DNA from: Pelagomonas calceolata
Taxonomy: Eukaryota; Sar; Pelagophyceae; Pelagomonadales; Pelagomonadaceae
NCBI GenBank assembly: GCA_918797485.1
Contig: CAKKNE010000001.1
Span: 5,890,001 to 5,954,000, forward strand
Length of the DNA: 64,000 nucleotides
Reading direction: 5' to 3'
The position numbers and the translations under genes were made by a program. Every line of letters begins with the position of its first letter. The first letter of the stretch is position 1. Below are positions 599 through 63,861 of this stretch, piece after piece. The notes below the pieces were generated by a model, which saw only the letters and a program-made list of their open reading frames with translations, was not told where the DNA came from and did no database searches.

Positions 599-621
599 CT
601 AGTGTGTTACATACCGCTAGC
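599..621 (+). promoter_or_regulatory. Promoter palindrome, copy 1
   Basis: CTAGTG, a TGTTACATAC core and CGCTAGC lie in the 362-bp space between the partial gene at 1-416 and NAA35. The core is almost the same as in the copy at 36,996. Apart from this motif I see nothing else recognisable in 417-778. Confidence 0.65.
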
Positions 622-778
622 TTGGCGGCGTCTCTCGTGCCTGGACTCGCGCTGATCGCGCAGCGGTGCTCTGTAAAAAGAGTCCTCAGCATCGCTGTCA
701 TTCGTGCTCGGACCCGTTTCTACACGAGTGCTGCATTCGCTGCTGCGGTAGACACCCTTAGCCATCGTGGTCGCCACC

Positions 779-2992
779 ATGGCTGCCAGCGATGCGCCGC
801 CGCCGCCGCCTGTTGACGAGGAGGACGAGCGCTGGGTCGACGTCACCGAGGACGTGGCCGGCGTCGCCGCGTCGCTGGACGTCGACGAGCTGCTCCGGGC
901 GCCGACGTTCTCGCTCTACGACAGCATGTCCGCGCTGGAATTGATGGATCCCAAAATGGACGCGCTGGGCTCCGAGCCGCCGCAGCGGTCCGTGGCGGAG
1001 TTGTTGAAAGACCTGCCGGTCGACCTCGCGCCCGGCCCGGCCATCATTATACTAGATAGGCTACTCGCGCTCGAGGTGTCCTACCACGGCGGCGCGTCGC
1101 TGCACGACTCTATTTTAGAATGTGTCGCGTTGCGGGACCCCGCGACGGCGGCGCTGAGCGACGCGTCGCCGGCAAGTAAGGCCGTCGCGCAGGCCGCGAA
1201 TTTGACCTTGTGGGTCTGCGAGGCCGCGCGCGAAATTGTGGTCGCGGCGGACATTTTTGAAGAGGAGGACTTCGCGACGTCCACGACCAAGGTCAGCAAG
1301 GCCGTCGAGGAGGCGCGGCGGCGGGGCCGGGCGCTCCCCGTTGATGAATCTGTCGAGGACGCGCGGTTGCAGGCCCACGTTGCGCTGAGACGGTCCCTGG
1401 CCGAGGCCGTCGCGCGCCTCGGCGCGGAGCGGCACGCCCTTCAGGACGACGGCGGCGCGACGGACCGAGCCCGGAACGCTCTAGACCAGCTCGATGCCTT
1501 GGATGCGGATCATAGTGATGGCGACGCGACGATTGCGGACGCATGGTTCGCGACCTGCCGCGACGAGCACGCCACCACGAGAGGCGTCAGCCCGCCGCAG
1601 GGCGGCTGGGCGTCATCAGATGAACGGAAAGCAACGCGGGACGCCTGCCGCCAGCTGCTTAGGGGTTTGGACCGGGTCTGGGACCTGAGGAGGTGCCTGG
1701 CATTTTTAAGGTTCAGTGACGAGTCGACCGAGCTCCCGGCCCTACCTTCAGTGGATGCGCGGCGCTGCGAGCACGCGCACAGTCGTCTCCTCAGACTGTG
1801 CTTGAATGTTGGCCATCAATCAAGGGGCGGCGGCCGCTTCGTGCTGCCTCGGTCCTTCGCGGCGTTGGAATTGGGGGGCGCCGGCGCGCCGCTGCGGAAA
1901 CTCCTGAATCAGGACGACTTTGGCGCCGAGGCGTCGGCGACGCGCTTGGGGCGGGGGCCGAAGAAGGCGTCCGTGTTCGGCGTGGTCGTCGACTCGATCG
2001 TGAGCGGTGGCGCGCCGAACTGCGTGGTCCAGTGCCGCGCGGGCGCCGAGTTCGCGTCCCGAGCATCGTTGCGCGTATTGCATGTCTTGCGAGCCGTCGC
2101 GTCGGCGAACCGAGCGCGCTTACGACAACAACTTCCGGGACTGTTGTTAGATTGGGCGCAGCTTGTGGAAGATGCGCGCCGCGCCGATATGAGATGTGCT
2201 GAAGCTTTACGCTTGCCCAACGAGCACGCGCGATATCTGGGCACCTGGGCCCTCAAATATAGCCTGTTGTTGATGGAGCGGACGTTGGCGTTGGACGTGT
2301 CGCTCGAGTTAGTGGTCACTCCTTCTGATTTGGAGCATGTTTTTTGGTACCGCGAGTACTTGCTTGCAGCTAGATCGACGCTGGCGCAGGACGCGAGGCG
2401 GCAACGTGTACTACTGAGAGATTCATTGGCAGAACAGCCCGACGCGCCGCGAATTACGGAAGAGGAGCGGCGCTTGGATGCTTTGGCGGACGCGCGCGAC
2501 GCCGCGCTCGAGGCTTCACTCAGGGGCGCGCGGTGTCTGTGTCGCGCGACGCATTTGGTTTGTGCGGCGCGAGCCGCGCGGGACGCGGCGACGTCGGACG
2601 GCGGGCAGACGTACGTGTATGCTTCTCGTAGAACTCGTTTCGCGAAGCGGTTCTCGGCGTTTGCCTGCTTCGCCGAGCCGGCGCCCATCCAGTACGAGGC
2701 CTATGAAAGTATCTCATTGAAACAACGGGCGGCCTGCGACGATATTCCAACGGCCGCGGCCAAGTTTTTTGGAGACGCCGCGCAATTGGTGGACCACGCG
2801 ATCAAGCTCGGGAAGACGGCGGAGCCCGTGTTGTATTCCACGGCCGACGCCGACGACCTCGTGGCGTTGAAGCGTGTCGCCGTGTCGAATCGCGTGGGCC
2901 TCGCGCGCGCGGACGCGGACGCGGACCCACCGCCCAAGTTCGCGCTGGACCTGGCGGCGCACGAGGACTTTCCGGTGGTGAAGGGGCTCTGA
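779..2992 (+). CDS. NAA35: NAA35/Mak10-like auxiliary subunit of N-terminal acetyltransferase NatC
   Basis: This is a single-exon gene of 737 residues. The family signature is clear at residues 41-61 (PTFSLYDSMSALELMDPKMD), followed by the conserved GPAIIILDRLLALEVSYHG region. In other eukaryotes Mak10/NAA35 is the large non-catalytic subunit that anchors the NatC complex (NAA30, NAA38) to ribosomes for co-translational acetylation of Met-Leu/Ile/Phe/Trp N-termini. I chose the ATG at 779 because it sits in a near-perfect GCCACCATGG context; the frame is open four codons further upstream but only from a GTG. Length is typical for the family. The long alanine/arginine-rich inserts in the middle match the base composition of neighbouring genes. 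Confidence 0.93.
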   Translation: MAASDAPPPPPVDEEDERWVDVTEDVAGVAASLDVDELLRAPTFSLYDSMSALELMDPKMDALGSEPPQRSVAELLKDLPVDLAPGPAIIILDRLLALEVSYHGGASLHDSILECVALRDPATAALSDASPASKAVAQAANLTLWVCEAAREIVVAADIFEEEDFATSTTKVSKAVEEARRRGRALPVDESVEDARLQAHVALRRSLAEAVARLGAERHALQDDGGATDRARNALDQLDALDADHSDGDATIADAWFATCRDEHATTRGVSPPQGGWASSDERKATRDACRQLLRGLDRVWDLRRCLAFLRFSDESTELPALPSVDARRCEHAHSRLLRLCLNVGHQSRGGGRFVLPRSFAALELGGAGAPLRKLLNQDDFGAEASATRLGRGPKKASVFGVVVDSIVSGGAPNCVVQCRAGAEFASRASLRVLHVLRAVASANRARLRQQLPGLLLDWAQLVEDARRADMRCAEALRLPNEHARYLGTWALKYSLLLMERTLALDVSLELVVTPSDLEHVFWYREYLLAARSTLAQDARRQRVLLRDSLAEQPDAPRITEEERRLDALADARDAALEASLRGARCLCRATHLVCAARAARDAATSDGGQTYVYASRRTRFAKRFSAFACFAEPAPIQYEAYESISLKQRAACDDIPTAAAKFFGDAAQLVDHAIKLGKTAEPVLYSTADADDLVALKRVAVSNRVGLARADADADPPPKFALDLAAHEDFPVVKGL

Positions 2993-3124
2993 TGGGATGA
3001 TGATGGGTAAATTTAATTGGATGTATCCGGTTCACATCTGTAAAACCCGTTTTCCCAGTGGTCGTGTGGGTGTGAGTACTCGGCCAGCGGTCACTACTGG
3101 GTTTGACTCGCCCGCCACTTAGCT

Positions 3125-4141: not shown

Positions 4142-4180
4142 TGAGGAGCGTAAATACATACAAAGGTATTTTACAATTGA

Positions 4181-6148: not shown

Positions 6149-6264
6149 TTGTTACGAATCGTACCTCTGCTATCACTGTAGTATCAGAACGTCTCGGAGA
6201 AGCGTTAACCGTCGAAGGGCGTGCACACAGGCTGCCAAAAAGTCAAGCGCAAAAGTAGTGGGAG

Positions 6265-6285
6265 CTAGTGACAGTAAGTCACTAG
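6265..6285. promoter_or_regulatory. Perfect inverted repeat, palindrome variant
   Basis: CTAGTGAC, a 5-bp loop AGTAA and GTCACTAG form an exact 8-bp inverted repeat. It lies 117 bp upstream of the phosphatase start and 39 bp beyond the WD40 stop. It shares the CTAGTG arm with the promoter palindrome but is symmetric and shorter, so it may be a variant of that motif or a hairpin at the WD40 3' end. Confidence 0.45.
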
Positions 6286-6323
6286 AAAGGACAAAGCTCG
6301 ACACTTATCCAAGGAGGCGCCTA

Positions 6324-10076: not shown

Positions 10077-12638
10077 TTAGATCGAATCGAACATGTCCGC
10101 GAGCTGCCCCTCGCTCAGCGTCTCCGGCCCGAAGTCCTTTTCGGGTGCGGCCGGCGCCGGCGCCTCGACTTCGTCCTCGCCCGGCGGCGCGACGTAGAAT
10201 ATAGACCCCGTCGCCGCCATCGCGACGTCGGCGACGGCCTCGTCGACGGCCGTGTCCGGACTTTCCAACGCCACGAGGACGTGGAAGGTCTGCTCCGGGA
10301 AGTCGCGCATGAACGTGCGCAGGCCGTCGGCCGGGAAGCCCCTGGATGATGCCGCGTCCACAACCACCAGGACGTCGCTTGCGTCCTCGAGCATGGGCTT
10401 TGAACGTGTCCGCTCGCATTTCGACCATTTTGTGAAGAAGTTTGCCAAGGTATCCTCCGTGGCCTCGGCCAGCGTCCAGGGGAAGGAGGTCCCATCATCC
10501 CAGGCCGCGAAGGCCATCGGTACCGTCGCGGCCCGTAGGAACGCGGACGCGGCTTCATTAGGTCGCTCCCGGCCGCTCTTCAGACCGCCCGCATCGAGCA
10601 CCACGAGCCGCGTCGCATTTGGTATATTCACTCCGCAAAATATATCGGAGGCGTTGAAGCAGAGACATATTTTCTTCGGCGCCGCCATCGCCCAGTGGAG
10701 CTCGGGCGGCGCGGGGCCCGGGAGTTTTAGAGATTCATTCCTTCTCAGAGTAGGATGCCGCGACTTGGACGCCGTTATATCAAAGCACCGCCCGCCCGGC
10801 AGCGTCATCTCGAGACATCCATCAGAATTGCAGACGCCCTTCACCGGGAACGGCTCGCCTCCACTACTCTCCGCCTCGCGTCGCTTCAAGTCCACGAACC
10901 TTGATACAAGGTTCTTCTTCATGCCTCCCTTCTCTCCCAATATTGATCGTAACTCCGAGATCCTCATTTTCTCGGCCTCGCTTTGTACCTTTTTTGCATC
11001 AAAGTATACAGCAGGCTTGATGTGGCACTCGACCTTATAATCTGCGCATTCCTCGCCGTTCATCAGAAGCTTCCACTCTACCGCCCGCAACGGCGCCTCG
11101 AAGACACATGGGGAAGCGTTGCTCCTTTTATCAACGGTAAAGGGTACCTTATCTAGGACTGTCCGTTTCGATAACGTTTCGGTCACAGTACCAGTATATT
11201 CTCCTGGTGGAATTACGGAAGGATTGAGGAACACGACGCGATCGTCCGACGTCTTGTGCAGCAGTCTAGAAGCCCCTTCGGCCGTCGCGACCTCGACCTC
11301 GTAGTAGTCGGACGCCGGCGCGACGCTCAACGCCATGCGCGCGTCGTGGTCGGCGACCGTTGAAGATCCAGGATGGTACATGGGCCCCGGCACGAAGGTC
11401 CGGAACGAGTCGCTCCGCCTCTTCCAAAGGATGTCGTCGGCCCCGTCCTTGGCCCAGAGCTTGGCTCTAAAGCCGGCCTCTCTTAGTGAATCGGCGGCCT
11501 GCAATGCGTTCGCGACGCGGCCCTTCTGCATTAACTTACGTACGGAGGTGTCCAAATCTAGGACCTTCATGTGGCGTTTTACGGCGAACATCCCAATGCC
11601 TGCCTCGCGCACGGCCTTTCCTGGAACATTTACTAATTGCTCACAAGCAGCAAAGGCGACCTCGACCGCCAAATATATGGCGGCTTCTCGTGATCGTTTG
11701 TGTATCGTCTCGGCTAAGTAGACCGTCTTTTGCAGGGCGCGCTGGGGGAGTGACGAGGGCGGCGGTTCCACTAGTCTTTTAGATACATTCAACAAAACGA
11801 GGTTGGTCCTTTCAAAGGCCGATGGTTGTTCCGGTGTATCTGAGATCCATTGATTTCTACCTTTGACCACGTCCATATAGTCCGGCCCGAGTAGCTCAGC
11901 ACCCCACAGATCAATGGCATCTCGAATCGCGTTCAGGAACCACTCATAGTACCGAATCGAGGCCACCTCGGGGCAACACAATAGTGGTGTTGAGCTACCT
12001 TTGCCCGCCAATACACGGGACCAGCCGCGCGTCGCGAGTTGGGCATCGTCGATGGCCGCCAAGACCTTCGAAGCAGGCGCACCTTCATTCAGAGCGCCAC
12101 ATGCATCATACAAAGCGGCTGCTGCTCGTGCCACGCGACCCGTGACCACATCAGTCGTAGCCTGTTCTGGGGTAATATCCGGTTTGAAACTTCTCAGAGC
12201 TTCATTTAATAATATAACATCCATGGCCGAGGGCGTCCTTTTCTGCGGTTCTCTCATAACAAGCCAGGACAGGTGGCGCCTCACTTTTGGCTCCTTTCGA
12301 GTACTAAGCTTCCTCAGGTGTCTTTTTGGTGTGGACGGCGTGAGCGGTTTATTCTCTTGGGACCGCGTCTCCCAGTGCTCGAGCGACGACCAGTCGCCCA
12401 TGGAGACCGCCGAGAAGGAGAAGGCCTCGTCCCGATGGGCCAGCGCGCGGTCGGGCGACTGGACGGCAAACGACACGGATCGCGCGTCGTGCGGCGTGCG
12501 CTTCTTCTTCGGCGACACGGCTCCAGAAGCTCTACTGAAGTGGCTCTTGGAGCTGAAGGAGGCTTCATCGCGTTGCCGGCGGCTCCCGGGCGTCTGTAAG
12601 GGCGCGAGGACCGAGTCCTGGGCTAATTGCTGGTCCAT
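10077..12638 (-). CDS. Large protein of unknown function with a SAP-like motif
   Basis: This 853-residue single-exon protein matches no full-length family I recognise. The N-terminal 110 residues are Ser/Lys/Pro-rich with many TP and SP sites (APLQTPGSRRQ, AVSPKKKRTPHD, PLTPSTPKRH), suggesting cell-cycle or CDK-type phosphorylation. A SAP-like helix-loop-helix lies around residues 590-620 (MRISELRSILGEKGGMKKN). The last 150 residues alternate strands and helices (RLVVLDAGG, SDVLVVVDAASSRGF, TFHVLVALE), as in a Rossmann or vWA-type fold. No membrane segment is present. A nuclear or nucleic-acid role is only suggested by the SAP-like motif. It shares a divergent promoter holding a palindrome with the F-box-like gene at 12,869. 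Confidence 0.75.
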   Translation of the reverse strand: MDQQLAQDSVLAPLQTPGSRRQRDEASFSSKSHFSRASGAVSPKKKRTPHDARSVSFAVQSPDRALAHRDEAFSFSAVSMGDWSSLEHWETRSQENKPLTPSTPKRHLRKLSTRKEPKVRRHLSWLVMREPQKRTPSAMDVILLNEALRSFKPDITPEQATTDVVTGRVARAAAALYDACGALNEGAPASKVLAAIDDAQLATRGWSRVLAGKGSSTPLLCCPEVASIRYYEWFLNAIRDAIDLWGAELLGPDYMDVVKGRNQWISDTPEQPSAFERTNLVLLNVSKRLVEPPPSSLPQRALQKTVYLAETIHKRSREAAIYLAVEVAFAACEQLVNVPGKAVREAGIGMFAVKRHMKVLDLDTSVRKLMQKGRVANALQAADSLREAGFRAKLWAKDGADDILWKRRSDSFRTFVPGPMYHPGSSTVADHDARMALSVAPASDYYEVEVATAEGASRLLHKTSDDRVVFLNPSVIPPGEYTGTVTETLSKRTVLDKVPFTVDKRSNASPCVFEAPLRAVEWKLLMNGEECADYKVECHIKPAVYFDAKKVQSEAEKMRISELRSILGEKGGMKKNLVSRFVDLKRREAESSGGEPFPVKGVCNSDGCLEMTLPGGRCFDITASKSRHPTLRRNESLKLPGPAPPELHWAMAAPKKICLCFNASDIFCGVNIPNATRLVVLDAGGLKSGRERPNEAASAFLRAATVPMAFAAWDDGTSFPWTLAEATEDTLANFFTKWSKCERTRSKPMLEDASDVLVVVDAASSRGFPADGLRTFMRDFPEQTFHVLVALESPDTAVDEAVADVAMAATGSIFYVAPPGEDEVEAPAPAAPEKDFGPETLSEGQLADMFDSI

Positions 12639-12748
12639 TTTATTATATGTGTTGGGGCAGCCCCTTCTCCTTTGGGTTTGGAGCCCTGCGACTGCCGGAG
12701 TGTTGCGCTCCCGCTGCGTGCTCTGCGGCGCTGCAAACTCGGGATTTT

Positions 12749-12772
12749 GCTAGTGTCTTACAGGACGCTAGC
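12749..12772 (+). promoter_or_regulatory. Promoter palindrome, copy 2
   Basis: GCTAGTG, core TCTTACAGGA and CGCTAGC: a full 24-bp copy in the 230-bp space between the starts at 12,638 (minus) and 12,869 (plus), 96 bp from the plus-strand ATG. Confidence 0.75.
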
Positions 12773-12868
12773 TTTGCTCTGCGGCGCTTTGTTTTTCACG
12801 ATACGCTGCAAGGAGCGCCTTTTCGCGCCAGGCATTACACGTTGAAATCCTAGTGAAAAACGCCTACA

Positions 12869-13825
12869 ATGCCGCGCCTTCGCTCGCAGACGCGGATCAC
12901 CGGCGTTTTGCCGCGCGAGCTCCTGCAGCGCAGCCTGGAGTTTTTGCCTGTTCGTGAGGTATACTGCGAGGCGCAGCTCATTTCGAGCGAATTTCTTTCG
13001 GCGTCGCGGCGGGCGCTCACGCGCGGGCGCTGGCGGCCGATGGCGCTCTTCTCCAAGGAAGCCGAGGAGCACCGGAATAGATTTGAATACGGCGCCGACC
13101 TCTCGTCGTGGCACGAGACCTTCAAGGAGGTCTGGGCGCTCGAGCCCGGGGAGGTGTTCTTTGAGCTCGCCTACTGGGACAGTTACCGGTATGCTGCACT
13201 GCGCGCGGGTCAGTTCCTCAAAATAGTGGAGCCGAACATCGAAGGGCTGTCGCGGATCGTCGCCGCCTGCGAGTTAGCGCAAGAGGCATATGATGGTGAT
13301 AACGGAATTGTGCGGCTTGTGGGAAGTTGGGCGAGCAGTCTGGGCCACAAGTTGCGTCTCGGCTACCCCCCGCGTCCCGACTACCACCGACGACTCCTAG
13401 ACCGGGATGCGGAGGATCAATTATTTGGTCTCGGGCTGGAGCGGTGGACGGACCCGAAACTCGCGGCGAGCTTCGTACGGGACGTCCTCGAATACGATGG
13501 TTATTTTGAAGAGGGGGGGATGTATGAAGCTTTGCGTGAGGACTACAATGAGTGGGAGTTTATGGAACCCAGCTACCGGCAGATGCACGAGCGCTGGGCG
13601 AGGGATTGGCGGGATCGCGACAGGGCCGACGCCTTCGTGGCGGAATGCGTGCGGCTTCAGGCGGAGGAGGCGCTAGAACAGGAGAGAGACGAGAGGGAGC
13701 AGTGGGAGGCCCAGCACGGCTGGAAGTACTGCCCGCACGGGGACAAGTACTGGGACTGTCCGCACTGCAGCGACGAGTGGCATGCGGGCTTTGACAACGC
13801 CTCGGGAGACGACGAGGAGGACTAG
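12869..13825 (+). CDS. F-box-like protein, paralogue 1
   Basis: The 318-residue product starts with an F-box-like helix pair: LPRELLQRSLEFLPVREVY, then SRRALTRGRWRPMALF at residues 45-61. The rest is aromatic and acidic helices, with a Cys/His cluster near the end (YCPHGDKYWDCPHCSDEW) that could bind zinc. The N-terminal half aligns by eye with the protein at 15,979-16,980 (LPREL..CLEFLP, ARYALTRGRWRPLKLF, EVWSLEP, LEIVEP), so the two are paralogues. They flank a kinase gene and are not tandem neighbours. If the F-box is functional the protein would be an SCF substrate adaptor; that is inference. Confidence 0.75.
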   Translation: MPRLRSQTRITGVLPRELLQRSLEFLPVREVYCEAQLISSEFLSASRRALTRGRWRPMALFSKEAEEHRNRFEYGADLSSWHETFKEVWALEPGEVFFELAYWDSYRYAALRAGQFLKIVEPNIEGLSRIVAACELAQEAYDGDNGIVRLVGSWASSLGHKLRLGYPPRPDYHRRLLDRDAEDQLFGLGLERWTDPKLAASFVRDVLEYDGYFEEGGMYEALREDYNEWEFMEPSYRQMHERWARDWRDRDRADAFVAECVRLQAEEALEQERDEREQWEAQHGWKYCPHGDKYWDCPHCSDEWHAGFDNASGDDEED

Positions 13826-15896: not shown

Positions 15897-15918
15897 GCTA
15901 GTGCCTTACTGCCGCTAG
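15897..15918 (+). promoter_or_regulatory. Promoter palindrome, copy 3
   Basis: GCTAGTG, core CCTTACTG and CCGCTAG form a 22-bp, slightly shortened copy. It lies in the 280-bp space between the kinase start (15,698, minus) and the second F-box-like gene (15,979, plus), 61 bp from the latter. Confidence 0.7.
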
Positions 15919-15978
15919 GGCATATGGAGTCATTGTCGTGAACGACGTGCCTAACCGAGGATACGACAACGACAGACG

Positions 15979-18335: not shown

Positions 18336-18598
18336 TGCTCCTTGCTAAATGCTCTCTTCCGCTGGGGCGGGCAGCCCTAACTCGATTGATGCGACGATAC
18401 GGTTTGAGGAGTTATGCTCGCCCTCTCTCGCAACCTGCTACGGCTGGCGCACGGCGGGCACTCGTGCCTTGGCAATCAAATGGCAGGCTCTGCCCCTGCA
18501 GCTGCAGGCCGTCTGTGCGGGCCGATCGGGAGGCACTTTTGGGTGCTCGCGAGTCCTATAGACGGGTCGCAGAGAGCTCTGATTGAGAATGACTGCAG

Positions 18599-18622
18599 GC
18601 TAGTGTCTTACAGGCCGCTAGC
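18599..18622 (+). promoter_or_regulatory. Promoter palindrome, copy 4 (best match to consensus)
   Basis: GCTAGTG, core TCTTACAGGC and CGCTAGC lie between the C2 gene start (18,335, minus) and the TLC-like gene start (18,792, plus). It differs at one position from copy 2. The rest of the 456-bp spacer shows no other clear signal. Confidence 0.75.
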
Positions 18623-18791
18623 CCCCGCCTCTCACAACCACACAAGAGGGCGTATCGAGTCATCGCTTCGGTTTCGCGCGAGTGGGGCGAGGCGGCGGGC
18701 TCTGCTGCACGGTCCCGGACTGGTGCAACCGCGACAGCGCAGCGTGCACCACACGCTGCGCATCAAAGAGGTGCAGAGGTGGAGTCTCAGC

Positions 18792-35614: not shown

Positions 35615-35642
35615 GGCTAGCGTGTGTGTCAACACACTAGCC
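35615..35642. promoter_or_regulatory. Class-2 palindrome (GTGTG stem) upstream of the plastid FG-repeat gene
   Basis: GGCTAG, CGTGTGTGTCAACACA and CTAGCC form a long inverted repeat with the GTGTG and CACAC arms pairing inside the outer GGCTAG/CTAGCC arms. It lies 86 bp upstream of the ATG at 35,529. A similar GTGTG-type copy is at 58,387. Confidence 0.6.
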
Positions 35643-36995: not shown

Positions 36996-37019
36996 ACTAG
37001 TGTCTTACATACCGCTAGC
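36996..37019 (+). promoter_or_regulatory. Promoter palindrome, copy 5
   Basis: ACTAGTG, core TCTTACATAC and CGCTAGC lie in the 419-bp space between the TAF4-like start (36,833, minus) and the ABC1 start (37,253, plus). The core TTACATACC is shared with copy 1 at 599. Nothing else in the spacer is recognisable. Confidence 0.75.
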
Positions 37020-41025: not shown

Positions 41026-41048
41026 GCTAGCGTCGTAAAGACACTAGC
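41026..41048 (-). promoter_or_regulatory. Promoter palindrome, copy 6 (reverse orientation)
   Basis: On the minus strand it reads GCTAGTG, core TCTTTACGA and CGCTAGC, a 23-bp copy. It lies in the 449-bp space between argB (start 40,785, minus) and the gene at 41,235 (plus). A weaker GCTAGCTTACGTCAC stretch follows at about 41,096. Nothing else in the spacer is recognisable. Confidence 0.72.
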
Positions 41049-45740: not shown

Positions 45741-45764
45741 GCTAGCGGCCTGTAACACTCTAGC
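45741..45764 (-). promoter_or_regulatory. Promoter palindrome, copy 7 (reverse orientation)
   Basis: On the minus strand it reads GCTAGAG, core TGTTACAGGC and CGCTAGC. It lies in the 552-bp space between the kelch gene (start 45,436, minus) and the RING-H2 gene (start 45,989, plus). Confidence 0.72.
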
Positions 45765-45924
45765 AAGCCAAAAGTTGCTCGGCCGCACTGCCGGCATTAG
45801 CTGCCGTTCTGTCGATACAGATGATGCATTCGTGTAAATGTGAGCTTTCCGCTCGGTGAGGCTGCCCCGGCACGCGACAATCGCATCCAGACACAACAAT
45901 CTCACACCAGAGTCTGTGAGGCTG

Positions 45925-45960
45925 CCCGCGCTTGACGTGCACCAACCCGCGCTTGACGTG
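45925..45960 (+). repeat. Two direct repeats with TGACGTG boxes
   Basis: CCCGCGCTTGACGTG occurs at 45,925-45,939 and again at 45,946-45,960, two helical turns apart and 29 bp before the RING-H2 start. TGACGTG is the core of bZIP/CRE-type sites. Just upstream GTGAGGCTGCCC is also repeated (about 45,857 and 45,917). Confidence 0.5.
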
Positions 45961-45988
45961 ACAAAGCACATCAATCGCAGCAGCGCAT

Positions 45989-46854: not shown

Positions 46855-46877
46855 GCTAGCGTCATAATTCCCCTAGC
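46855..46877 (-). promoter_or_regulatory. Degenerate promoter palindrome in the repeat island
   Basis: On the minus strand it reads GCTAGGG, core GAATTATGA and CGCTAGC. Both outer arms are intact while the TTAC core is lost. It lies between two gene 3' ends rather than in a divergent promoter, which is unusual for this motif. Confidence 0.4.
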
Positions 46878-47099
46878 GGGGCTATGTGATGGAGGTGGTT
46901 TTTGGAGGCAAAAAAGTAGTAGCAAACAAGTGGTTGCAAGACAGTGACCGCTCCGCGTCAACACTCAGTTCACCATTCTACCCTCTGAGCGCGCGAGAGA
47001 CTGAGAAACGCGGCTAGCGGAATCTTGCGAAATCAATCGAAATGCTAGGATTGCAGGCGCGGCCTATGGTCCCTCCCCCAGTCGGCCCGCGGTCGCCAC

Positions 47100-47258
47100 C
47101 TGTGTGGAAATCAAATTTACGGCGCGTTCGCCTCCACGCCATCGACGCGGCACCTGCTCGATGGCGTGGCAATGTCGGGTCCTCACCGCTCGACGGAGCC
47201 AGCGCGGCCACGTTGTCGCCGAGAAATGCACCCGATACAGTGGTTGATTTCCACACAG
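47100..47258. mobile_element. Intact introner-type MITE, 159 bp
   Basis: The element starts CTGTGTGGAAATCAA and ends with the exact inverted copy TTGATTTCCACACAG. It is flanked on both sides by the 8-bp target duplication GTCGCCAC (47,092-47,099 and 47,259-47,266). Inside, CCACGCCATCGA (47,134-47,145) and TCGATGGCGTGG (47,158-47,169) form a perfect 12-bp inverted repeat with a 12-bp loop. There is no coding capacity, so it must be mobilised in trans by a DNA transposase. Because the target begins with GT and the end reads CACAG, it would splice as an intron if it landed in a gene. The target's other strand also begins with GT. Confidence 0.85.
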
Positions 47259-47280
47259 GTCGCCACGGTAGTTCCCAGCA

Positions 47281-47448
47281 AGGACGCTGCTCCTCGACCG
47301 CGCTGATCTCCAATCTCCATAGTTCTCTGGAGATGAAAAACTTTTTGGTCCCTCCCCAGTCGGCCCGCAAAGGACGTGCTCCTCGACCGCGCTGATCTCC
47401 AATCTCCATAGTTCTCTGGAGATACAAAAATTTTTGGTCCCTCCCCAC
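47281..47448. repeat. Two tandem units of about 80-90 bp with hairpins
   Basis: Unit 1 (47,281-47,370) and unit 2 (47,371-47,448) both run from GGACG(C)TGCTCCTCGACC through a CTCCATAGTTCTCTGGAG hairpin to TTTTTGGTCCCTCCCC. A third partial copy of the unit end (GGTCCCTCCCCCAGTCGG) lies at 47,068, before the MITE. The MITE therefore inserted into a pre-existing tandem array. Confidence 0.75.
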
Positions 47449-47545
47449 ATAAAAACAAACCATCTTAGTATGATTCATATTCAAGGAAAGCTAAAAGTCG
47501 AAGATGCCCTTCCTCAGGCCGACTCGCCGCGCGTCTGAAGAATCA

Positions 47546-47587: not shown

Positions 47588-49444
47588 TTAGTCGATATAC
47601 ACGACCTCCTCCTCAGGTGGCTTTTGATAAAGGAACGCGCGCGGCTCGAGGTCGGGGCGCGCGGGGGCGCGCGCCGGCTCATCCTTCCCCCCACAGATCT
47701 TGCGATAGACGTCGAAGCCGCCGCAGTTGTCCAGACCTCCATCGGTCCCGCACTCGCCGTCTCCCTCGCAGAGCACGCCGCATGCAACCCTGTCGCAGGT
47801 GGCCAGGTCGCTATCTCTGGGGCAGTCTTCTGGGTCGACGGGCTCGAGCGACGTGCCGCACGGGCTCCAAGCTATCGGCGGGAAGGGTACGCCCGTGCGG
47901 GACGGGTGCTCCCACGGCATCACCGTCTCGTACCGCGTGCCGGGCCGTTTTCCCATGTCGTTGTAGACGTGTTTTTCGTCGGGGTCGTACCAGTGCATGA
48001 TCCAGTCCGCGAGCTTGCGCCCCGGCTCCTCGCCCACGGGGTAGAGGTAGCTCTCCGCCTCCTCCTCGCTAATGCGCTCGAAGTCGTCGGGGCTCCGGTT
48101 CGCGAGGTCCTCGTCGATCTCGGTGGGCGCCGACTCGTAGGGGTAGTCGTAGGGCGCCCGCAGCCACTCTAATGGAGGCAAATGCTGGTTGGACGCGTTC
48201 CCGTGCAACGCCTGCTGCTCGAACAGGGCGTCTACCAATCGCCCCGCGGCGTCGTCGAGCAGCTTCGAGTCGTTCGTGAAGCGGGGCTGCAGCGGGAGCT
48301 TGCCGTCGAACCACCAGCGCTTGTGGAGGAACGTGTCCACGACGCGTCGTACCTCACGTGCCGACGACTCCGCATAGACTTTGAGGGTGTGGTGGTCGTC
48401 GTCTATGGTAATAGATAGATCGACGTTTATTAAAGGCGCCACGGGCCGTTGTAAGGTTGCGGCCCTACACGCGTCGTAGGCCGGATCAGGTCTTCGGTTC
48501 ACCGTGAGTCGCGGACACGCTTTATCTGATTCCCGCCGCAACACGTGGCAGAGCGGCTCCAATGAAGACGCCTCGACGGCTTTGACCCTCCTCTTAAGAG
48601 GATACCAGTCCTCGAAGCCCGCTATTTGCCTTTCTAAACAAGCTCGATTCGTGAACTCGAACCCATCTTTTGCTCGTACTTCACCTTGCGGGACCAGGTA
48701 GTCCATCGTCAACGCCGCCTGTCTCACGAGAGCGTCGCCCATGAATAACGAATCGTCCATGACGTTCCGCGTCGAGTTGTCGGGATGCGTCGCCCCAAAC
48801 ACGGCGATCCTGCTATGCCGCACTCGCCTCAGATTGCCGCGGTGGATCATCAGCGGGCCCATTTTTCCATCATCAAAAGTAAATACCAAATCCAACCTAC
48901 AAACAATGAACAGCATGTACTGCGTCCCGTCCCGATGTTCCCACTCGTACCAGTTCGACAACCTTATAGCTTCTCGCATCGAATAAAAGTGGGCGTACTT
49001 GTTCTGGAGGACCTGCGGGCACCGCTGGCCCGTGCTCACTCTCCTATCGTATCGGCAGTCCATGTCATACACTAATGATCGGGATATTTGGTGGTACTCG
49101 TCCGCAAAATCCATCATATCCTCTACGGTATAATTCGTCGGCTCGTACGCCGTTACGACTTCTGCACTCTCGTTGCCGGACCACGTGTGCAGGAACAGGT
49201 CCGCGTCGATGTGCGGCCTTAAATAGGTCATGATCTGGTGGGCCGTCGGCCGCCAGTCCGCGTTCGTGGTGGTGCAGCCGTCATACCTCTTATGTTTCGT
49301 GGGCGACGAGAGGCCGTGCATGATGATCGCGATGTCGACTTTGGTCTCCGGGTCGCGCTTGTTGGGGTCGCGCGCCAGCTTCTCCTCGTAGTCGGTTTGT
49401 TGGCCCAGTACGGCGGCGGCGTAAAGCCACCACAGCTTGGCCAT
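47588..49444 (-). CDS. Large secreted protein, glycosyltransferase-like
   Basis: The 618-residue product begins with a signal sequence (MAKLWWLYAAAVLGQQ). Its first half has VDIAIIMHGLSSPTKHKRYD, MTYLRPHIDADLFLHTWSGN and a D-x-D-like strand YMLFIVCRLDLVF, a layout seen in secreted or Golgi glycosyltransferase-like families. There are several N-glycosylation sequons (NYT, NST, NDS, NAS). The C-terminal 110 residues hold a cysteine cluster (CPRDSDLATCDRVACGVLC, GECGTDGGLDNCGGF) resembling an EGF-like module. The final PPEEEVVYID is acidic. No second membrane segment is seen, so it is probably luminal or extracellular. The function is assigned only by architecture. Confidence 0.7.
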   Translation of the reverse strand: MAKLWWLYAAAVLGQQTDYEEKLARDPNKRDPETKVDIAIIMHGLSSPTKHKRYDGCTTTNADWRPTAHQIMTYLRPHIDADLFLHTWSGNESAEVVTAYEPTNYTVEDMMDFADEYHQISRSLVYDMDCRYDRRVSTGQRCPQVLQNKYAHFYSMREAIRLSNWYEWEHRDGTQYMLFIVCRLDLVFTFDDGKMGPLMIHRGNLRRVRHSRIAVFGATHPDNSTRNVMDDSLFMGDALVRQAALTMDYLVPQGEVRAKDGFEFTNRACLERQIAGFEDWYPLKRRVKAVEASSLEPLCHVLRRESDKACPRLTVNRRPDPAYDACRAATLQRPVAPLINVDLSITIDDDHHTLKVYAESSAREVRRVVDTFLHKRWWFDGKLPLQPRFTNDSKLLDDAAGRLVDALFEQQALHGNASNQHLPPLEWLRAPYDYPYESAPTEIDEDLANRSPDDFERISEEEAESYLYPVGEEPGRKLADWIMHWYDPDEKHVYNDMGKRPGTRYETVMPWEHPSRTGVPFPPIAWSPCGTSLEPVDPEDCPRDSDLATCDRVACGVLCEGDGECGTDGGLDNCGGFDVYRKICGGKDEPARAPARPDLEPRAFLYQKPPEEEVVYID

Positions 49445-49630
49445 CGTCGTTTCCCCGGCGCGGCGGCGAGTGGCCGTGGTGGGGAGTGCGGTGTTTTTGG
49501 CTGCCTCCGAGCTTTTATGCGCAGCTTTTCACTCGCGCCCTTGGCGCGGGCGGCTTCTGAGTACCCATGCGCGGCATACGAGCCACGGTGTGGGTGTTAT
49601 CGATGCGTTTTTCGGGGCTGCCCTCGAAAA

Positions 49631-49653
49631 GCTAGTGGCCTTGTGACGCTAGC
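49631..49653 (+). promoter_or_regulatory. Promoter palindrome, copy 8
   Basis: GCTAGTG, core GCCTTGTGA and CGCTAGC lie in the 392-bp space between the secreted protein (start 49,444, minus) and the histidine phosphatase (start 49,837, plus). Confidence 0.7.
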
Positions 49654-49683
49654 AGCATTATACTCGCACGTCGTTTTTACAGT

Positions 49684-49738
49684 GTAATTACAGCGTAAAA
49701 GTAATTACAGAGTAATATTTTTTACAGCGTAATTACAG
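49684..49738. repeat. Three GTAATTACAG repeats in an A/T-rich patch
   Basis: GTAATTACAG occurs at 49,684-49,693, 49,701-49,710 and 49,729-49,738, with GTAATA and TTTTACAGC between. TAATTA is palindromic and resembles a homeodomain core. The patch stands out in a GC-rich region and lies about 100-150 bp before the phosphatase start. Confidence 0.55.
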
Positions 49739-49836
49739 CAACGCTCGAGTCTTGCCCGCAGCACTGCACTAGTGCCAGCGGAGATTCACAGTGCAGCTGC
49801 AAGGGCTTGCGCAGCACGCCAGCGACGCGGCGATCT

Positions 49837-50718
49837 ATGCGATACGTAACGACATTCATCATGGCCTCGATGATGCGCGAAGCCCCCGCCCTAGCGGATA
49901 AGAAGCTCTACTCGGCGAGCGCGATGGCGACGGCGCAGATCGAGGGCAAGCAGCACTACGACGAATTGGAGCGGCAAGGCGTGTTAGGTATAGTTAGGAA
50001 AACAAGAATCCGAGGACGATTGGCCGACGGCGTGCCGATGCGGGAGGGCGAGAAGATGCTGCACCTCATAAGGCACGGCCAGGGCTTCCACAACTTGCTC
50101 GGGGATTTATATAGAGACTTCGGGAAGACGGTCGACAGCACGGGCGGTGATAAGTCAGGCAATCCTTATGTGAGACCGGAGATCGAGGACTCGCCCCTGA
50201 CTGCTGTTGGAAGGCAACAAGCCAAAGCCCTGAGGCCGACGACAAGAGCTTTGACGGGCATCGAGCTGGTTGTGTTGTCACCCTTACAACGGGCGGCCCA
50301 GACGGCCGCTTTAGCGATGCCTCATTTGAAAGATATAGTGCCGTGGATCGGCCACCCGTTGGTCCAGGAGACGTCGGGCGTGAACGTGTGCGATAGGCGA
50401 AGGGACCGGTCCGAGATCCAGGACGACTTCCCCTGGGTCGAGTGGGGCCGCCTCGATTCGGAGAAGGACGAGTTCTTCGACCCTGATGAAAGGGAGTCCG
50501 CCCGATCCGTCTCGGATCGGGGCTACGACTTCATGCGCTGGGTGCGGGCGCGACCGGAGTCCGAGATCATCGTGGCGACGCACTCGGCCTGGTTGTTCAC
50601 TTTGTTGAACACGGTGATCGAGGCCGACTCTTCTGATTTGTCCTCGTGGTTCCTCACGGGCGAGCTCCGGTCGGTGATCGTGTCCTTCGAGGACCGGGCG
50701 TCGCCCGACGAGCTCTAG
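49837..50718 (+). CDS. Histidine phosphatase (phosphoglycerate mutase-like) family protein
   Basis: The 293-residue product has the catalytic LHLIRHGQGFHN at about residue 74-85. LTAVGRQQAKALRP follows, then VVLSPLQRAAQTA with the second conserved arginine, and IIVATHSAWLFTLL with the second catalytic histidine. This is the complete branch-1 histidine phosphatase set (R-H-G, R, H). The closest style is the plant and fungal phosphoglycerate mutase-like proteins of unknown substrate, which have G-x-G-F-H-N after RHG. The N-terminal 30 residues are not a clear targeting signal. The ATG at 49,837 is the first in frame, with another M at 49,861 possible. Confidence 0.88.
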   Translation: MRYVTTFIMASMMREAPALADKKLYSASAMATAQIEGKQHYDELERQGVLGIVRKTRIRGRLADGVPMREGEKMLHLIRHGQGFHNLLGDLYRDFGKTVDSTGGDKSGNPYVRPEIEDSPLTAVGRQQAKALRPTTRALTGIELVVLSPLQRAAQTAALAMPHLKDIVPWIGHPLVQETSGVNVCDRRRDRSEIQDDFPWVEWGRLDSEKDEFFDPDERESARSVSDRGYDFMRWVRARPESEIIVATHSAWLFTLLNTVIEADSSDLSSWFLTGELRSVIVSFEDRASPDEL

Positions 50719-50796: not shown

Positions 50797-50820
50797 GCTA
50801 GTGGCCTTAAGACCGCTAGC
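50797..50820 (+). promoter_or_regulatory. Promoter palindrome, copy 9
   Basis: GCTAGTG, core GCCTTAAGAC and CGCTAGC lie 231 bp upstream of the SAM/RRM gene. Here the neighbouring genes are tandem rather than divergent, so the motif is not limited to bidirectional promoters. The core GGCCTT matches copy 8. Confidence 0.7.
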
Positions 50821-57142: not shown

Positions 57143-57166
57143 GCTAGTGTCTTACTGGACGCTAGC
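57143..57166 (+). promoter_or_regulatory. Promoter palindrome, copy 10
   Basis: GCTAGTG, core TCTTACTGGA and CGCTAGC form a full copy in the 397-bp space between the small plastid protein (start 57,027, minus) and the SGNH hydrolase (start 57,425, plus). The rest of the spacer has no recognised signal. Confidence 0.75.
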
Positions 57167-58386: not shown

Positions 58387-58410
58387 GCTAGTGTGTCTCG
58401 ACACAATAGC
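58387..58410. promoter_or_regulatory. Class-2 palindrome, second copy
   Basis: GCTAGTGTGTCTCGACACAATAGC pattern: outer arms GCTA/TAGC, inner TGTGT/ACACA. It lies 148 bp before the plastid protein at 58,558 and resembles the copy at 35,615, which is also upstream of a plastid-targeted gene. Confidence 0.55.
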
Positions 58411-60444: not shown

Positions 60445-63400
60445 CTAGTCACTTACCTCCTCCGCCTCGACCGAGTCATCATCATAATTCTCGGACGGGT
60501 CCTCCTCGGCGACGGACGCCAAGGACCCGCCGACGGGCCGGACGTACGTGTGCGGCAAGTAGCCCTCTCGACCGCCTTCGACGGCCGTCGCGTAGACCCA
60601 GCCGTCGGCCCCCTCAGCTAAATCGGCGATGGGAACTAGTATTGACTCGCCCTTGGTCACACTGAGCTCGGTCTCGCCGTCGGCATTAAACGCGTGCACC
60701 GCGACACATCTTTTGAGACCTCTCGCTGCCAATGCTTCATCAGATTCCTCCTCCTTCGGTTCATCAACGAAGTCGTCTCCATACGTTTCGTCCTCGGCCG
60801 ACTTGTCCTTCGAGAAGTCGTCGCCGTAGGTCTCGGACTTCTGTGCAGAAAAGTCGTCCCGATAACTATCATCCCCGAAGTCCGTGCCGTAGTCTTCCGA
60901 CTCCTCGCCCACGATCTGGAGGTAGCCGCAGGGCACGTAGCCGTCTTTTGTTCCATCGACCTTCTTCGCGAGCAGCCAGCCGTCGGCATCGTCGAGGTCC
61001 TTGCGGTCGCAGTAGACGCGCTCATTTTTATTCAGAGACATCTCGTTGTCGTTCTGGGCCGTGAAGCTCGAGATCGCGCGGCACTCGCACCGCGCCGGCT
61101 GTTCCTTCGGTTTCTGGGCGTCTTTGACCTTCTTGGCCTCGACGCGGCCCGTGCGGCCGCGTAGAGCTGCTTGGAGCCGCGTGACGGCCTGCTCATCCCG
61201 CTCTTTTCGTCGTCGTTGCATGTCCAGGCGCGCGGTCCGTCGCCTTTCCGAAGCCTGGAGCATCGTCGCGGCGCCGTCGTCGCGTTTCTGGCGCCTTTCA
61301 TTCATCTCGAGCTTCGCCCTTCTACGTCGCTCGGCGCCCTGCAGCAAAGTCGCCATGCCGTCGTCCCGCACCTGTCGCCTTTGTTGGACCTCCTGCCGCG
61401 CGTTGCGCCGCCGTACACTGCCTTGCAGCATTGTCGCGGCGCCGTCGTCGCGCACCTGCCGTCTTTGGGACAGCTCTTGCTTCGCGTTGCGTCTCCGCAC
61501 GGAGCCCTGGAGCATCGTGGCCGCACTATCATCTCGCACTTGCCGCCGCTGCCGCAGCTCGAGCCGCGCGGTGCGCCGCCGCTCCGCCGCCTGGAGCATC
61601 GTCACGGCCGCCTCATTTTCATCGACGGCCTCGACGACCGGCGGCGCGGCCGGCGGCGGCCGCCGGCGCGCCTGGAGGCCGCGGTACGACGCCTGCAACC
61701 GCGTCGCGGCGCCGTCGTCGCGGACGCGGCGCCGCTTATTCATCTCAATTTTTGCGGTCCGGCCGCGCTCGGCGGCCTGGAGCTTCGCCGCGGCGCCGTC
61801 GAGCGCCGCCGCCTCCTCTTGTCGGAGCGCCTCGGCCGCGGCCTCGGCGCGCATCGTCTCCTCGAGCCGCGCGGCGCGCGCCGCGACGGCGCGCTTCTTC
61901 GCGCCGCGGGACCGCTCCGCGGCTTGCAATCGCGTCGCCGACCGATCCATCGTGATAACTTCGCGCCGCTCCGCCGTTTGTTTTTTGGCGACGCGGCCGC
62001 GCTCCGCGGCTTGTAAACGCGTCGCGGACCGCGCCAGGGCCTCGGCCTCCGCTCGTGCCGCGGCCTCGGCGTCGGCCCGCGCCTGGGCCTCGGCCCGGGC
62101 CCGGGCCGCGGCCTCGGCGCGCTGGAGAGCTTCAGCGCGCTGTCTCTTCGCGGCTTCGGCTTCCTTCCGCGCGCCGCGGCCCCGCTCCGCCGCGGCGAGG
62201 CGCGTCGCCGCCGTCGCGAGTAGTTCGGCTTCAGCTAATGCAGCCGCCTCGGCCTCGGCCGCGGCGGCCGCCTCCGCCCGCGCGACGATCTCGGCCCGGC
62301 GCGCGCGCGCCGCCTCGGCCTTGAGCTTGGCCGTTCTCGAGCGCTCGGCGGCTTGCAGGCGCGTCGCGGCCGACGTCAGGGCGGCCTGCGTCTTCGCCGT
62401 GGCGATTGCGGCCGCTCGTAATTTCGCAATTCGACCCCGTTCGGCCGCCTGCAGCCGCACCGCGGCACCACATAACTGCTCGGCCCACTCTTCAGCCTCG
62501 CGCTCCTTCTCGGCCTCGCGCGCCGCCGCGGCCGCCTCGCGCTCGACGAGCTCCCTCTTCAATTCCTCCTTCCGCGCTTGACGCTCGGCCTCCTTCTCTG
62601 CATTGATTTCCGCCTCGCGGCGCTCCCTAGCTTCCCGCTCCTCGGCAGCCACGCGGTCCTTCTCCGCGATCTCCCTTAATTTCCGCTCCTCCTCCGCGTG
62701 GTGCGATTCGGCCGCCTCGCGCTCCTCGGCGGCGGCCGCCTGGCGTTCTTCAAATTCCTGGCGCTCCTTCGCGCGCAGGGCCAGCTCCGCTTCGCGGCGC
62801 TTCTTGGCGGATTCGCGCTCCTGCTTGTTCTCCTGCTCAGCTTTTTTGCGGGCCGAAGCGCGCTCCTCGGGGGACTTGGGAGTCTTCTCTGATGGAGATG
62901 GAGAGAACGCCGGCCGGGCCGGCGAGAGCACGAAGCCGTCGCCACTGGACGGCGTGACGGCGCCCTTGGCCTCCCGCAGAAACGCCGTCTTCTTCCGGCC
63001 GTGCTTCCCGCGCCACGAATCGTCTTTCTTGACCGGGGGCTCGACGAAGTCGTCGGCGTAGGGATCCTCCTCTTCAGCAGCCTTCTTCGTAGGACCCTTC
63101 TTCTTCGACATGCGCTTCGCTAATTCCGCACTCTTCTCCAGCCGCGCGACCCTCGCCCTTTCGCGCGTCACGAGCATCCGTTCTCGCTTCAAGAGTTCCT
63201 TCTCCTGGGCCAGGGCCTTGCGCAGGCGCGCCACGGTCTTGTTCTCCTTCGACGCGAGCTGCTTCCGCAACCTTTCGATGGCGGCGGCGGTCTCGTTTTG
63301 AGACACTTTTTCAGGCGGCGGCGGCGGCTTCGCCGTGGCCGGCCGTCCGATGCGCGCCGACTGCGGCCGTGCCAACGCCGACTGGGGCCGTCGTTGTCGT

Positions 63401-63561
63401 GCCGACTGCGGCCTGGTTGTCTTCTTCTTCTCGACTCGTTGCGGCAATTCCAGAGGCCGCGTCACGTCCACAACGAGCTGCGGGCCGCCGCCCTCCATCC
63501 ACAAGTCGAACTTGCCGCGGGCCAAGGGCACGCCGTTGACGAAGACGTGCGTCGCCGCCAT
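60445..63561 (-). CDS. IQ-rich scaffold protein with two SH3 domains
   Basis: The 1,038-residue product starts with a small domain and Gln/Ser/Ala-Arg-Pro repeats (RPQSARQRRPQSALARPQSA). A Lys/Glu/Arg coiled coil follows to about residue 360. Thirteen IQ-like helices then run from about 365 to 800, each with the core LQAAERGR or LQGSVRRR; the last five are spaced about 26 residues apart with RRQVRDDGAATM between. An SH3 domain lies at about 823-880 (CRAISSFTAQNDNEMSLNKN), then three YGDDF repeats and a second SH3 at about 947-1008 (CVAVHAFNADGETELSVTKG). IQ motifs bind calmodulin or centrin and SH3 binds proline peptides, so a cytoskeletal or flagellar scaffold is plausible. The ATG is at 63,561; the frame upstream lacks an ATG until the edge of the spacer. 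Confidence 0.88.
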   Translation of the reverse strand: MAATHVFVNGVPLARGKFDLWMEGGGPQLVVDVTRPLELPQRVEKKKTTRPQSARQRRPQSALARPQSARIGRPATAKPPPPPEKVSQNETAAAIERLRKQLASKENKTVARLRKALAQEKELLKRERMLVTRERARVARLEKSAELAKRMSKKKGPTKKAAEEEDPYADDFVEPPVKKDDSWRGKHGRKKTAFLREAKGAVTPSSGDGFVLSPARPAFSPSPSEKTPKSPEERASARKKAEQENKQERESAKKRREAELALRAKERQEFEERQAAAAEEREAAESHHAEEERKLREIAEKDRVAAEEREARERREAEINAEKEAERQARKEELKRELVEREAAAAAREAEKEREAEEWAEQLCGAAVRLQAAERGRIAKLRAAAIATAKTQAALTSAATRLQAAERSRTAKLKAEAARARRAEIVARAEAAAAAEAEAAALAEAELLATAATRLAAAERGRGARKEAEAAKRQRAEALQRAEAAARARAEAQARADAEAAARAEAEALARSATRLQAAERGRVAKKQTAERREVITMDRSATRLQAAERSRGAKKRAVAARAARLEETMRAEAAAEALRQEEAAALDGAAAKLQAAERGRTAKIEMNKRRRVRDDGAATRLQASYRGLQARRRPPPAAPPVVEAVDENEAAVTMLQAAERRRTARLELRQRRQVRDDSAATMLQGSVRRRNAKQELSQRRQVRDDGAATMLQGSVRRRNARQEVQQRRQVRDDGMATLLQGAERRRRAKLEMNERRQKRDDGAATMLQASERRRTARLDMQRRRKERDEQAVTRLQAALRGRTGRVEAKKVKDAQKPKEQPARCECRAISSFTAQNDNEMSLNKNERVYCDRKDLDDADGWLLAKKVDGTKDGYVPCGYLQIVGEESEDYGTDFGDDSYRDDFSAQKSETYGDDFSKDKSAEDETYGDDFVDEPKEEESDEALAARGLKRCVAVHAFNADGETELSVTKGESILVPIADLAEGADGWVYATAVEGGREGYLPHTYVRPVGGSLASVAEEDPSENYDDDSVEAEEVSD

Positions 63562-63838
63562 CGTGTACACTGCCCTTGCTGCTAGGCGGTTTTTGCGCTG
63601 CCCGCCCGACGCTGTGCTGCCCAATGCTGCGACCCGGCGTCCAGGGGTGCGCCTGCGTCTCCGCCGGGCTCCGACGCGCCCGCTGGGCCTTGTCGTTGGC
63701 CTCAGCAGTGTTTTTATTGCGCCAAACCGCTGCGCTTGGCGCTGGACCACCAACCCGAGGCCGCGAGCTTCTATTTGAAAACAGCACGTATGGTGCGCGT
63801 CGGAGGCGTGCGGGGGCAGCCTTTACGTCCGACGCAAC

Positions 63839-63861
63839 GCTAGTGGCTCTTATACGCTTGC
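63839..63861 (+). promoter_or_regulatory. Promoter palindrome, copy 11 (one arm changed)
   Basis: GCTAGTG, core GCTCTTATA and CGCTTGC: the right arm differs at one base. It lies between the IQ/SH3 gene (start 63,561, minus) and a probable plus-strand gene start at 63,969. Nothing else in 63,562-63,968 is recognisable. Confidence 0.55.

Follow-up and report, generated by a model that had tools for sequence, protein, structure and literature searches.

The stretch examined here comprises 64,000 nucleotides of contig CAKKNE010000001.1 of the pelagophyte alga Pelagomonas calceolata (assembly GCA_918797485.1, positions 5,890,001 to 5,954,000) and is referred to as the window. It has a GC content of 63.8% and contains a short dispersed element in which a left arm GCTAGTG and a right arm CGCTAGC enclose a core of variable length. 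All eleven copies described in the original prediction were found at their positions, along with a decayed one at 46855 (Table 1), and five of the eleven (598-621, 15897, 36996, 45741 and 63839) carry a single arm mismatch. A search of the window with the pattern GCTAGNG-N5..12-CGCTAGC yielded nine matches, compared with 0.05 expected from dinucleotide shuffles, which gave a maximum of two and in none of 100 cases reached nine. An additional copy-like place at 34124-34150, located within an open reading frame (ORF) model, shows one arm mismatch and a 13-nt core and is probably a chance match.

According to a Pfam scan of 34 window proteins, the genes beside the copies are diverse and include those of a NatC subunit, a kinase and proteins of the C2, TLC, ABC1, amino-acid kinase and Kelch classes, as well as RING, histidine phosphatase, RRM, GDSL-lipase and SH3 proteins. 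The copy at 18599 falls inside an ORF model if the TLC-domain gene begins at its first ATG (18414). The copy at 63839 overlaps two mechanical ORFs (63311-64000 on the minus strand and 63624-63884 on the plus strand), neither of which is taken as a gene by the models, and the convergent space around the decayed copy at 46855 may hold an unmodelled minus-strand ORF (47014-47484).

Table 1. Copies of the element and related inverted repeats in the window
Feature	Position	Strand	Arms and core	Context
Element copy	598..621	+	10-nt core, left arm CCTAGTG	divergent space 416-779, upstream of NAA35/Mak10-like gene at 779 (+)
Element copy	12749..12772	+	exact arms, core TCTTACAGGA	divergent space 12638-12869
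Element copy	15897..15919	+	9-nt core, right arm CGCTAGG	divergent space between a protein kinase gene and one lacking a Pfam match
Element copy	18599..18622	+	exact arms, consensus core TCTTACAGGC	upstream of TLC-domain gene, provided that this gene starts at the in-frame ATG 18792
Element copy	36996..37019	+	left arm ACTAGTG	divergent space 36833-37253, no Pfam match / ABC1 kinase-like
Element copy	41026..41048	-	exact arms, 9-nt core	divergent space 40785-41235, amino-acid kinase / no Pfam match
Element copy	45741..45764	-	left arm GCTAGAG	divergent space 45436-45989, Kelch / RING
Decayed copy	46855..46877	-	GCTAGGG..CGCTAGC, core GAATTATGA	convergent space of gene models
Element copy	49631..49653	+	exact arms, core GCCTTGTGA	divergent space 49444-49837, no Pfam match / histidine phosphatase
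Element copy	50797..50820	+	exact arms, core GCCTTAAGAC	tandem space, 231 bp upstream of RRM gene at 51051
Element copy	57143..57166	+	exact arms, core TCTTACTGGA	tandem space, 259 bp upstream of GDSL-lipase gene
Element copy	63839..63861	+	right arm CGCTTGC	window edge, upstream of minus-strand SH3 gene (start 63561)
Related hairpin	6264..6286	-	TCTAGTGACTTACTGTCACTAGC	38 bp after stop, tandem space
Arm-matching copy	35616..35641	-	12-nt core, 10-bp RNA stem	44 bp after stop, 87 bp before next ATG
Related inverted repeat	58387..58410	+	GCTAGTGTGTCTCGACACAATAGC	27 bp after stop, tandem space

Abundance and sequence of the element

According to Guerin et al. (2022, PMC9481584), the genome of P. 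calceolata RCC100 has a size of 32.4 Mb, distributed over six chromosomes, the plastid and the mitochondrion, with 63.6% GC and 16,667 genes. The assembly searched in this study contains 32,445,274 bases in 8 contigs, and the reversed pattern served as control. The form CTAGTG-N6..12-CGCTAG, in which the outermost bases are free, occurs 4,096 times genome-wide (2,068 forward, 2,028 reverse) compared with 33 control matches, the exact form GCTAGTG-N7..10-CGCTAGC 2,077 times compared with 4, and the left half CTAGTGTCTTAC 2,364 times compared with a single control match. These counts include any duplicated chromosome ends. Paired matches at near-equal coordinates of C1 and C5 (112,203/112,264; 254,972/254,904; 48,383/48,342; 25,749/25,723) fit the 393-kb duplication that is reported in the same paper to be common to the ends of contigs 1 and 5.

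The element was further analysed in a 304-kb sample consisting of the window and 240 kb outside it (sample A, C1:2000001-2200000, and sample B, C3:2000001-2040000; 0.7% of the genome). The form with free outermost bases is present 38 times in this sample, compared with a mean of 0.2 and a maximum of 2 in 300 permutations of the arms. Moreover, the top eleven over-represented 10-letter words in 101 promoter-bearing spaces all derive from the element. The element is thus a real constituent of this genome. No copy of the pattern CTAGTGTCTTACN{2,5}CGCTAG was present in the viral contigs searched. After masking of the element, the next over-represented intergenic words include GGGCAGCCC, GGCTGCCC, ATCGATGC and AAAACCCGT, weaker candidates that could be further promoter motifs.

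The consensus of the element is GCTAGTGTCTTAC-N2..4-CCGCTAGC. A profile built from the 43 copies with at most one arm mismatch reads TTGCTAGTGTCTTAC, followed by 2-4 loose bases and CCGCTAGC. The core length among 47 copies, eight of which had been pre-selected for exact arms, intact outer bases and cores of 7-10 nucleotides (a restriction that also applies to the outer-base counts given below), is 10 in 27 copies, 9 in eight, 8 in six, 11 in three and 6, 7 or 12 in one each. This variation proceeds in single bases and affects mostly the right part of the core. Since the arms consistently differ at one position, with a T in the left arm and a C at the mirrored position of the right arm, the palindrome is imperfect. 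To its left, the element is flanked by T-rich sequence, frequently TTGCT- or GCTTG-like, or in a subset of copies by GGGATGC; the corresponding 29-letter pattern has 16 exact matches and 189 within three mismatches, with none in the control. Solo half-sites were considered as the true unit and rejected, as 41 of the 52 left halves in the 304-kb sample are accompanied by a right arm and several of the other 11 by a decayed one.

Placement of the element relative to genes

Within the 304-kb sample, 178 genes were called by a codon-pair score of our own, which disregards introns and misses some genes, and start codons stand in for transcription starts in all distances given. There were 68 candidate places with at most two arm mismatches, of which 51 were kept for counting, namely all those with at most one mismatch and those two-mismatch places that combine a typical core with 6-12 as spacing; the remaining 17 two-mismatch places were dropped before counting. 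The kept copies are distributed over divergent (22), tandem (21) and convergent (2) spaces, ORF models (3) and edges (3). Copies accordingly occupy 22 of the 53 divergent spaces, 21 of the 60 tandem ones and 2 of the 55 convergent ones, and one is present in 43 of the 113 promoter-bearing spaces (38%), a share that differs from that of convergent spaces with P = 5e-7. A stricter form of the element (38 copies) gave 19/53, 15/60 and 1/55 for divergent, tandem and convergent spaces, respectively, and a second gene model gave 19/53, 13/74 and 1/55.

The special tie to divergent promoters that the original prediction had emphasized was not upheld, as the occupancies of divergent and tandem spaces are statistically alike (Fisher P = 0.56) and two of the copies listed there, 50797 and 57143, are situated in tandem spaces. 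Divergent-promoter specificity was therefore rejected, and since tandem spaces carry copies about as often as divergent ones, the element marks promoters generally. The gene models give 6/10 divergent window spaces with one copy, and the earlier figure of nine or ten out of about 13 is close to the 8/11 obtained after an adjustment that adds the space 416-779 (its left gene being the minus-strand ORF 3..416 that runs off the window edge) and resets the start at 18414 to 18792. The statement that most promoters are marked is too strong in view of the sampled share of 43/113; the window is richer in occupied divergent spaces than the rest of the sample, where 16 of 43 hold a copy. No copy is present in the divergent window spaces that separate a sulfotransferase-like gene from a TPR-MYND gene and a Brix-domain gene (previously named IMP4) from the bS16 gene, nor in the one that precedes the Myb-RING gene at 25764. 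An even spread over coding and intergenic DNA, which had been named as speaking against the prediction, was not observed, with 3/51 copies in ORF models and 2/51 in convergent spaces. Of the three copies in ORF models, two are located 182-185 bp from a model start and are followed by a further in-frame ATG, so that these models perhaps start too early.

The distance to the start codon is mostly limited. An ATG (the nearer one in divergent spaces) follows 40-310 bp downstream of 41 of the 45 copies in spaces, whereas random placement in the same spaces would give 16.6 such copies; for the 43 copies in promoter-bearing spaces, the median distance is 176 bp. The copies in tandem spaces are -4 to 1,753 bp away from the upstream stop codon, whereas 19 of 21 are located 87-306 bp before the downstream ATG; the position of a copy therefore follows the downstream gene. 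In divergent spaces of at most 900 bp, the copies are central, at 0.33-0.71 of the space (n = 18; Kolmogorov-Smirnov test against uniform, P = 0.013). None of the 168 spaces contains two copies, compared with 8.0 expected, an outcome that was reached in 0 of 5,000 random placements of 45 copies. Around the 22 divergent copies the GC content dips to about 0.52-0.57, compared with 0.59-0.61 at 24 element-free midpoints.

The average density of one copy per 8 kb (4,096 in 32.4 Mb), together with a single copy in each occupied sampled space, would also be expected of an insulator, a chromatin boundary or a replication-origin mark between genes. The insulator role suggested by the original prediction is disfavoured by the near-absence of copies from convergent spaces (2/55) and by a position that tracks the downstream ATG and not the gene boundary, and a function of this kind is regarded as highly improbable, even though an origin role at promoters would still be compatible with the placement. 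A conventional gene-specific transcription factor site that marks one large co-regulated set, for instance of growth, light or cell-cycle genes, has to be considered as well, because the occupied fraction of 43/113 leaves room for a functional class. The diversity of the genes beside the window copies and the very large regulon implied by more than 4,000 copies make such a site unlikely.

Related sequences, flanks and RNA folding

A scan of 84,980 prokaryote genomes for CTAGTGTCTTAC-N2..5-CGCTAG resulted in seven stretches (L033 to L039). Parts of four of them align to the genome of the window at 82-96% identity: L033 with 82% over 7.8 kb, L036 with collinear blocks of 83-94%, L034, 8 kb in length, with one part of 1 kb at 96% and another of 0.6 kb at 90%, and L037, through its sub-locus L045, with 91% over 278 bases, the full length of the stretch queried. 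These contigs are filed under bacterial metagenome-assembled genomes (the Spirochaeta bin MED672 and Tara bins) and look like misbinned or chimeric pelagophyte DNA from one or more relatives. L035, from the same bin as L033 and L036, shows only a 70% match around the element (sub-locus L042). For L038 and L039 no link to pelagophytes was seen, and both fit chance matches, of which about 30 are expected in random sequence by our own estimate. A looser pattern gave 1 versus 38, 2 versus 14 and 1 versus 8 matches relative to the control in other marine bins and 2 versus 0 in an insect endosymbiont bin. None of the four marine bins exceeds its control, and the case for relatives rests on the single contigs that align to the window's genome. 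Among these, L036 carries four copies in 8 kb. Each precedes an ORF (193-526 amino acids), at distances to the ATG of 133, 222, 163 and 149 bp, and all four are reversed relative to the downstream ORFs.

Eleven relative copies (four of L036 and seven others) were examined, and their orthologous places were queried by pattern. Alignments reach eight of the eleven, L041 only partly; they start or stop at the element edge for L036:2199, L036:4288, L052 and L054. Synteny is given by several blocks for L036, for L051 with L052 and for L054, and by one block each for L045, L042 and L041. The counterpart of L036:4290 was found exactly as predicted at C6:2240520-2240539, with one mismatch and in the expected orientation, and the pattern used has 137 genome-wide matches within two mismatches. 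Two further correspondences had not been predicted beforehand: a match of the flank-extended pattern (C6:2236931-2236959), in the expected orientation, within the unaligned 200-bp gap that corresponds to a weak copy at L036:7635, and an exact match at C4:4554072-4554100, at the site of the element within the 70% block of L042, a putative ortholog.

The element has no fixed orientation, as 22 of 34 copies have the direction of the served or nearer gene and 12 the opposite one (P = 0.12). The consensus RNA reaches a folding energy of -9.2 kcal/mol (z = -2.0) in one orientation, with a G-U wobble, whereas the other orientation (-5.3 kcal/mol, z = -0.3) folds no better than shuffles. The stable fold, the majority orientation and the strong folding of two related window copies near 3' ends (6264 and 35616, z about -4) are what would be expected of an RNA hairpin in 5' leaders, the arms of which, when transcribed from left to right, would pair and have a role in translation or stability. 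Nevertheless, the 12 reversed copies would contain a C-A mismatch in the stem, the four L036 sites are all reversed to their ORFs, and the outermost pair is broken and uncompensated in nine of the ten outer-base variants among 47 sites, a comparison that covers this pair only since the inner arm bases are fixed by the search pattern. Rfam gave no match above the gathering score in the window or in L036. Orientation and outer-pair variants thus speak against an RNA hairpin, although the consensus folds in one direction; a strict RNA role of the element is unlikely, and a 5'-leader function in particular is very unlikely.

The hairpin-like window copies at 6264, 35616 and 58387 were absent from the earlier list. 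Hairpins with related arms (CTAGTGAC..GTCACTAG and similar) are positioned 27-44 bp after stop codons of tandem spaces, with a further instance in sample A (25842-25864), and may represent a separate 3'-end class. Hairpins after stops in general were tried as a candidate feature and rejected, since they gave a weak signal, with 9 of 178 genes compared with 4.6 in shuffles. In addition, a 27-nt palindrome CGATGGCGTA..TACGCCATCG is situated between the 3' ends of two convergent genes of sample A (29843-29980) and is common to both.

The imperfect terminal inverted repeats, the GGGATGC flank of the subset and matches between non-orthologous copies that run past the element, for example over 52 nt at 90%, would agree with a very short mobile element or a remnant of a miniature inverted-repeat transposable element (MITE) that was spread by copying. 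Adjacent direct repeats are near chance level in 56 copies, which confirms the earlier observation that target duplications are lacking. An all-against-all comparison of the 56 element-masked flanks yielded four pairs at E <= 0.05, of which one is orthologous, two stem from neighbouring dispersed repeats and one is marginal (E = 0.018). The absence of a common flank holds for most copies examined, with the GGGATGC subset as a partial exception. Furthermore, the core length shifts by single bases, convergent spaces are avoided, and 24 bp is too short for a usual transposon. A transposon was therefore rejected, a mobile or MITE origin retains scarcely any probability, and the earlier view of a sequence-specific promoter element in place of a transposon is corroborated by the placement in promoter-bearing spaces, the lack of target duplications and the mostly unshared flanks.

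Two longer dispersed repeats were also noticed. One, about 150 bp long and present dozens of times in the genome, is found in L036 (287-456 and 2050-2172), sample A (31494-31586 and 42691-42745) and L004 (2198-2353); in L036 and sample A it follows stop codons in tandem spaces, and it stands just before a promoter-element copy twice in L036 and once in sample A. The other, of about 230 bp and 75-89% identical between copies, is present in sample B (33074-33305), L007 (1256-1483) and sample A (123507-123740) and adjoins the promoter element directly in two of the three cases seen.

A predicted general promoter factor and known systems

Judged from its sequence and position, the element is probably the binding site of a general promoter factor. 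It would represent a bipartite, spacing-tolerant site (GCTAGTGTCTTAC, 2-4 nt, CCGCTAGC, often with a TTGCT-like T-rich left flank) for one abundant sequence-specific nuclear protein. A promoter of this type would usually have one bound site, some 100-250 bp ahead of the start codon. The bound protein might keep a short stretch free of nucleosomes, and this open stretch would permit transcription to begin on one side in the case of tandem genes or on both sides in the case of divergent genes. The more specific proposal of a lineage-specific pelagophyte protein that organises about one third of the promoters through a tolerant two-part site, with nearly one site per promoter and equal use at single and bidirectional promoters, is put forward tentatively, as a possibility that falls short of an even chance.

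Several observations weigh against a general promoter factor. Seventy of the 113 sampled promoter-bearing spaces lack a recognisable copy, and one site per promoter is not an absolute rule, because adjacent pairs exist outside the sample (C1:575888 and 575925). There may be a mild bias towards gene orientation, and no functional class stood out beside the copies among the 34 window proteins scanned, for which no enrichment test was made. The looser pattern gave nine matches in bin MED672 and nine in the control, a missing excess that is explained by a bin consisting mostly of other DNA. No syntenic block extends over three of the eleven relative copies (L036:461, L036:5352 and L053). Finally, conservation at orthologous promoters, to which the original prediction had attached importance, was borne out in one of four direct checks (L036:4290) and not in the other three: at the orthologous places of L052 and L051, no match was detected within two and three mismatches, respectively, at fixed spacing, and the counterpart of L036:2198 is not among the listed matches (100 of 189) with at most two mismatches to its flank-extended pattern, in which the flank is also required. 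With three negative checks out of four, individual sites therefore seem to drift or turn over, while the place appears to be kept in at least one clear case.

A single word at 43 of the 113 sampled promoter-bearing spaces would give direct access to transcription starts and gene models, and to synthetic promoters, in a picoalga that is ecologically dominant and ranks among the most abundant eukaryotes of the ocean, and the element would be a bait for its predicted binding protein. The general promoter factors of yeast, flies and vertebrates are mutually unrelated, and a lineage-specific protein in P. calceolata, if true, would be another independent invention of such a factor.

No earlier description of the element or of pelagophyte promoter elements was found among the titles and abstract beginnings listed from a collection of 5.39 million open papers, outside which most subscription journals and all preprints fall. 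The words promoter, palindrom- and intergenic do not occur in the main text of PMC9481584. Introner elements are reported there for Aureococcus and suggested for Pelagomonas, with introns of about 210 bp (PMC9481584). Both introners and the present element are short genome-wide repeats of pelagophytes; as far as that text describes introners, the element differs in being 20-26 bp long, intergenic and without target duplication.

The closest parallels are provided by promoter factors of other eukaryotes. The NRF1 and ZNF143 sites are long near-palindromic or complex motifs that are common in bidirectional and housekeeping promoters of vertebrates, with a fixed spacing in the case of NRF1; the element is similar in its near-palindromic form and promoter placement, but its sequence differs and its spacing is variable. 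In the compact yeast genome, Reb1, Abf1 and Rap1 occupy promoter sites upstream of the start and are known to exclude nucleosomes, and the Abf1 site is bipartite. The element shares the promoter placement of these sites and the two-part structure of the Abf1 site, whereas the sequences are different. The Drosophila factors M1BP, which recognizes Motif 1, and DREF act through genome-wide promoter-proximal words, and Motif 1 is tied to the transcription start; the element is likewise a genome-wide promoter word, but it differs in sequence, and the length of Motif 1 and of the DREF site is fixed. The nitrate-responsive element of plant RWP-RK/NLP proteins is also a two-arm pseudo-palindrome, with arms about 10 bp apart; its arms differ from those found here, and it serves nitrate genes, whereas thousands of promoters are concerned in P. 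calceolata. Because of the different sequence, the element is not assigned to NRF1, ZNF143, M1BP or Reb1/Abf1. By analogy with these systems, it is a new element of a known kind of site, predicted to work like the sites of NRF1, M1BP or Reb1/Abf1.

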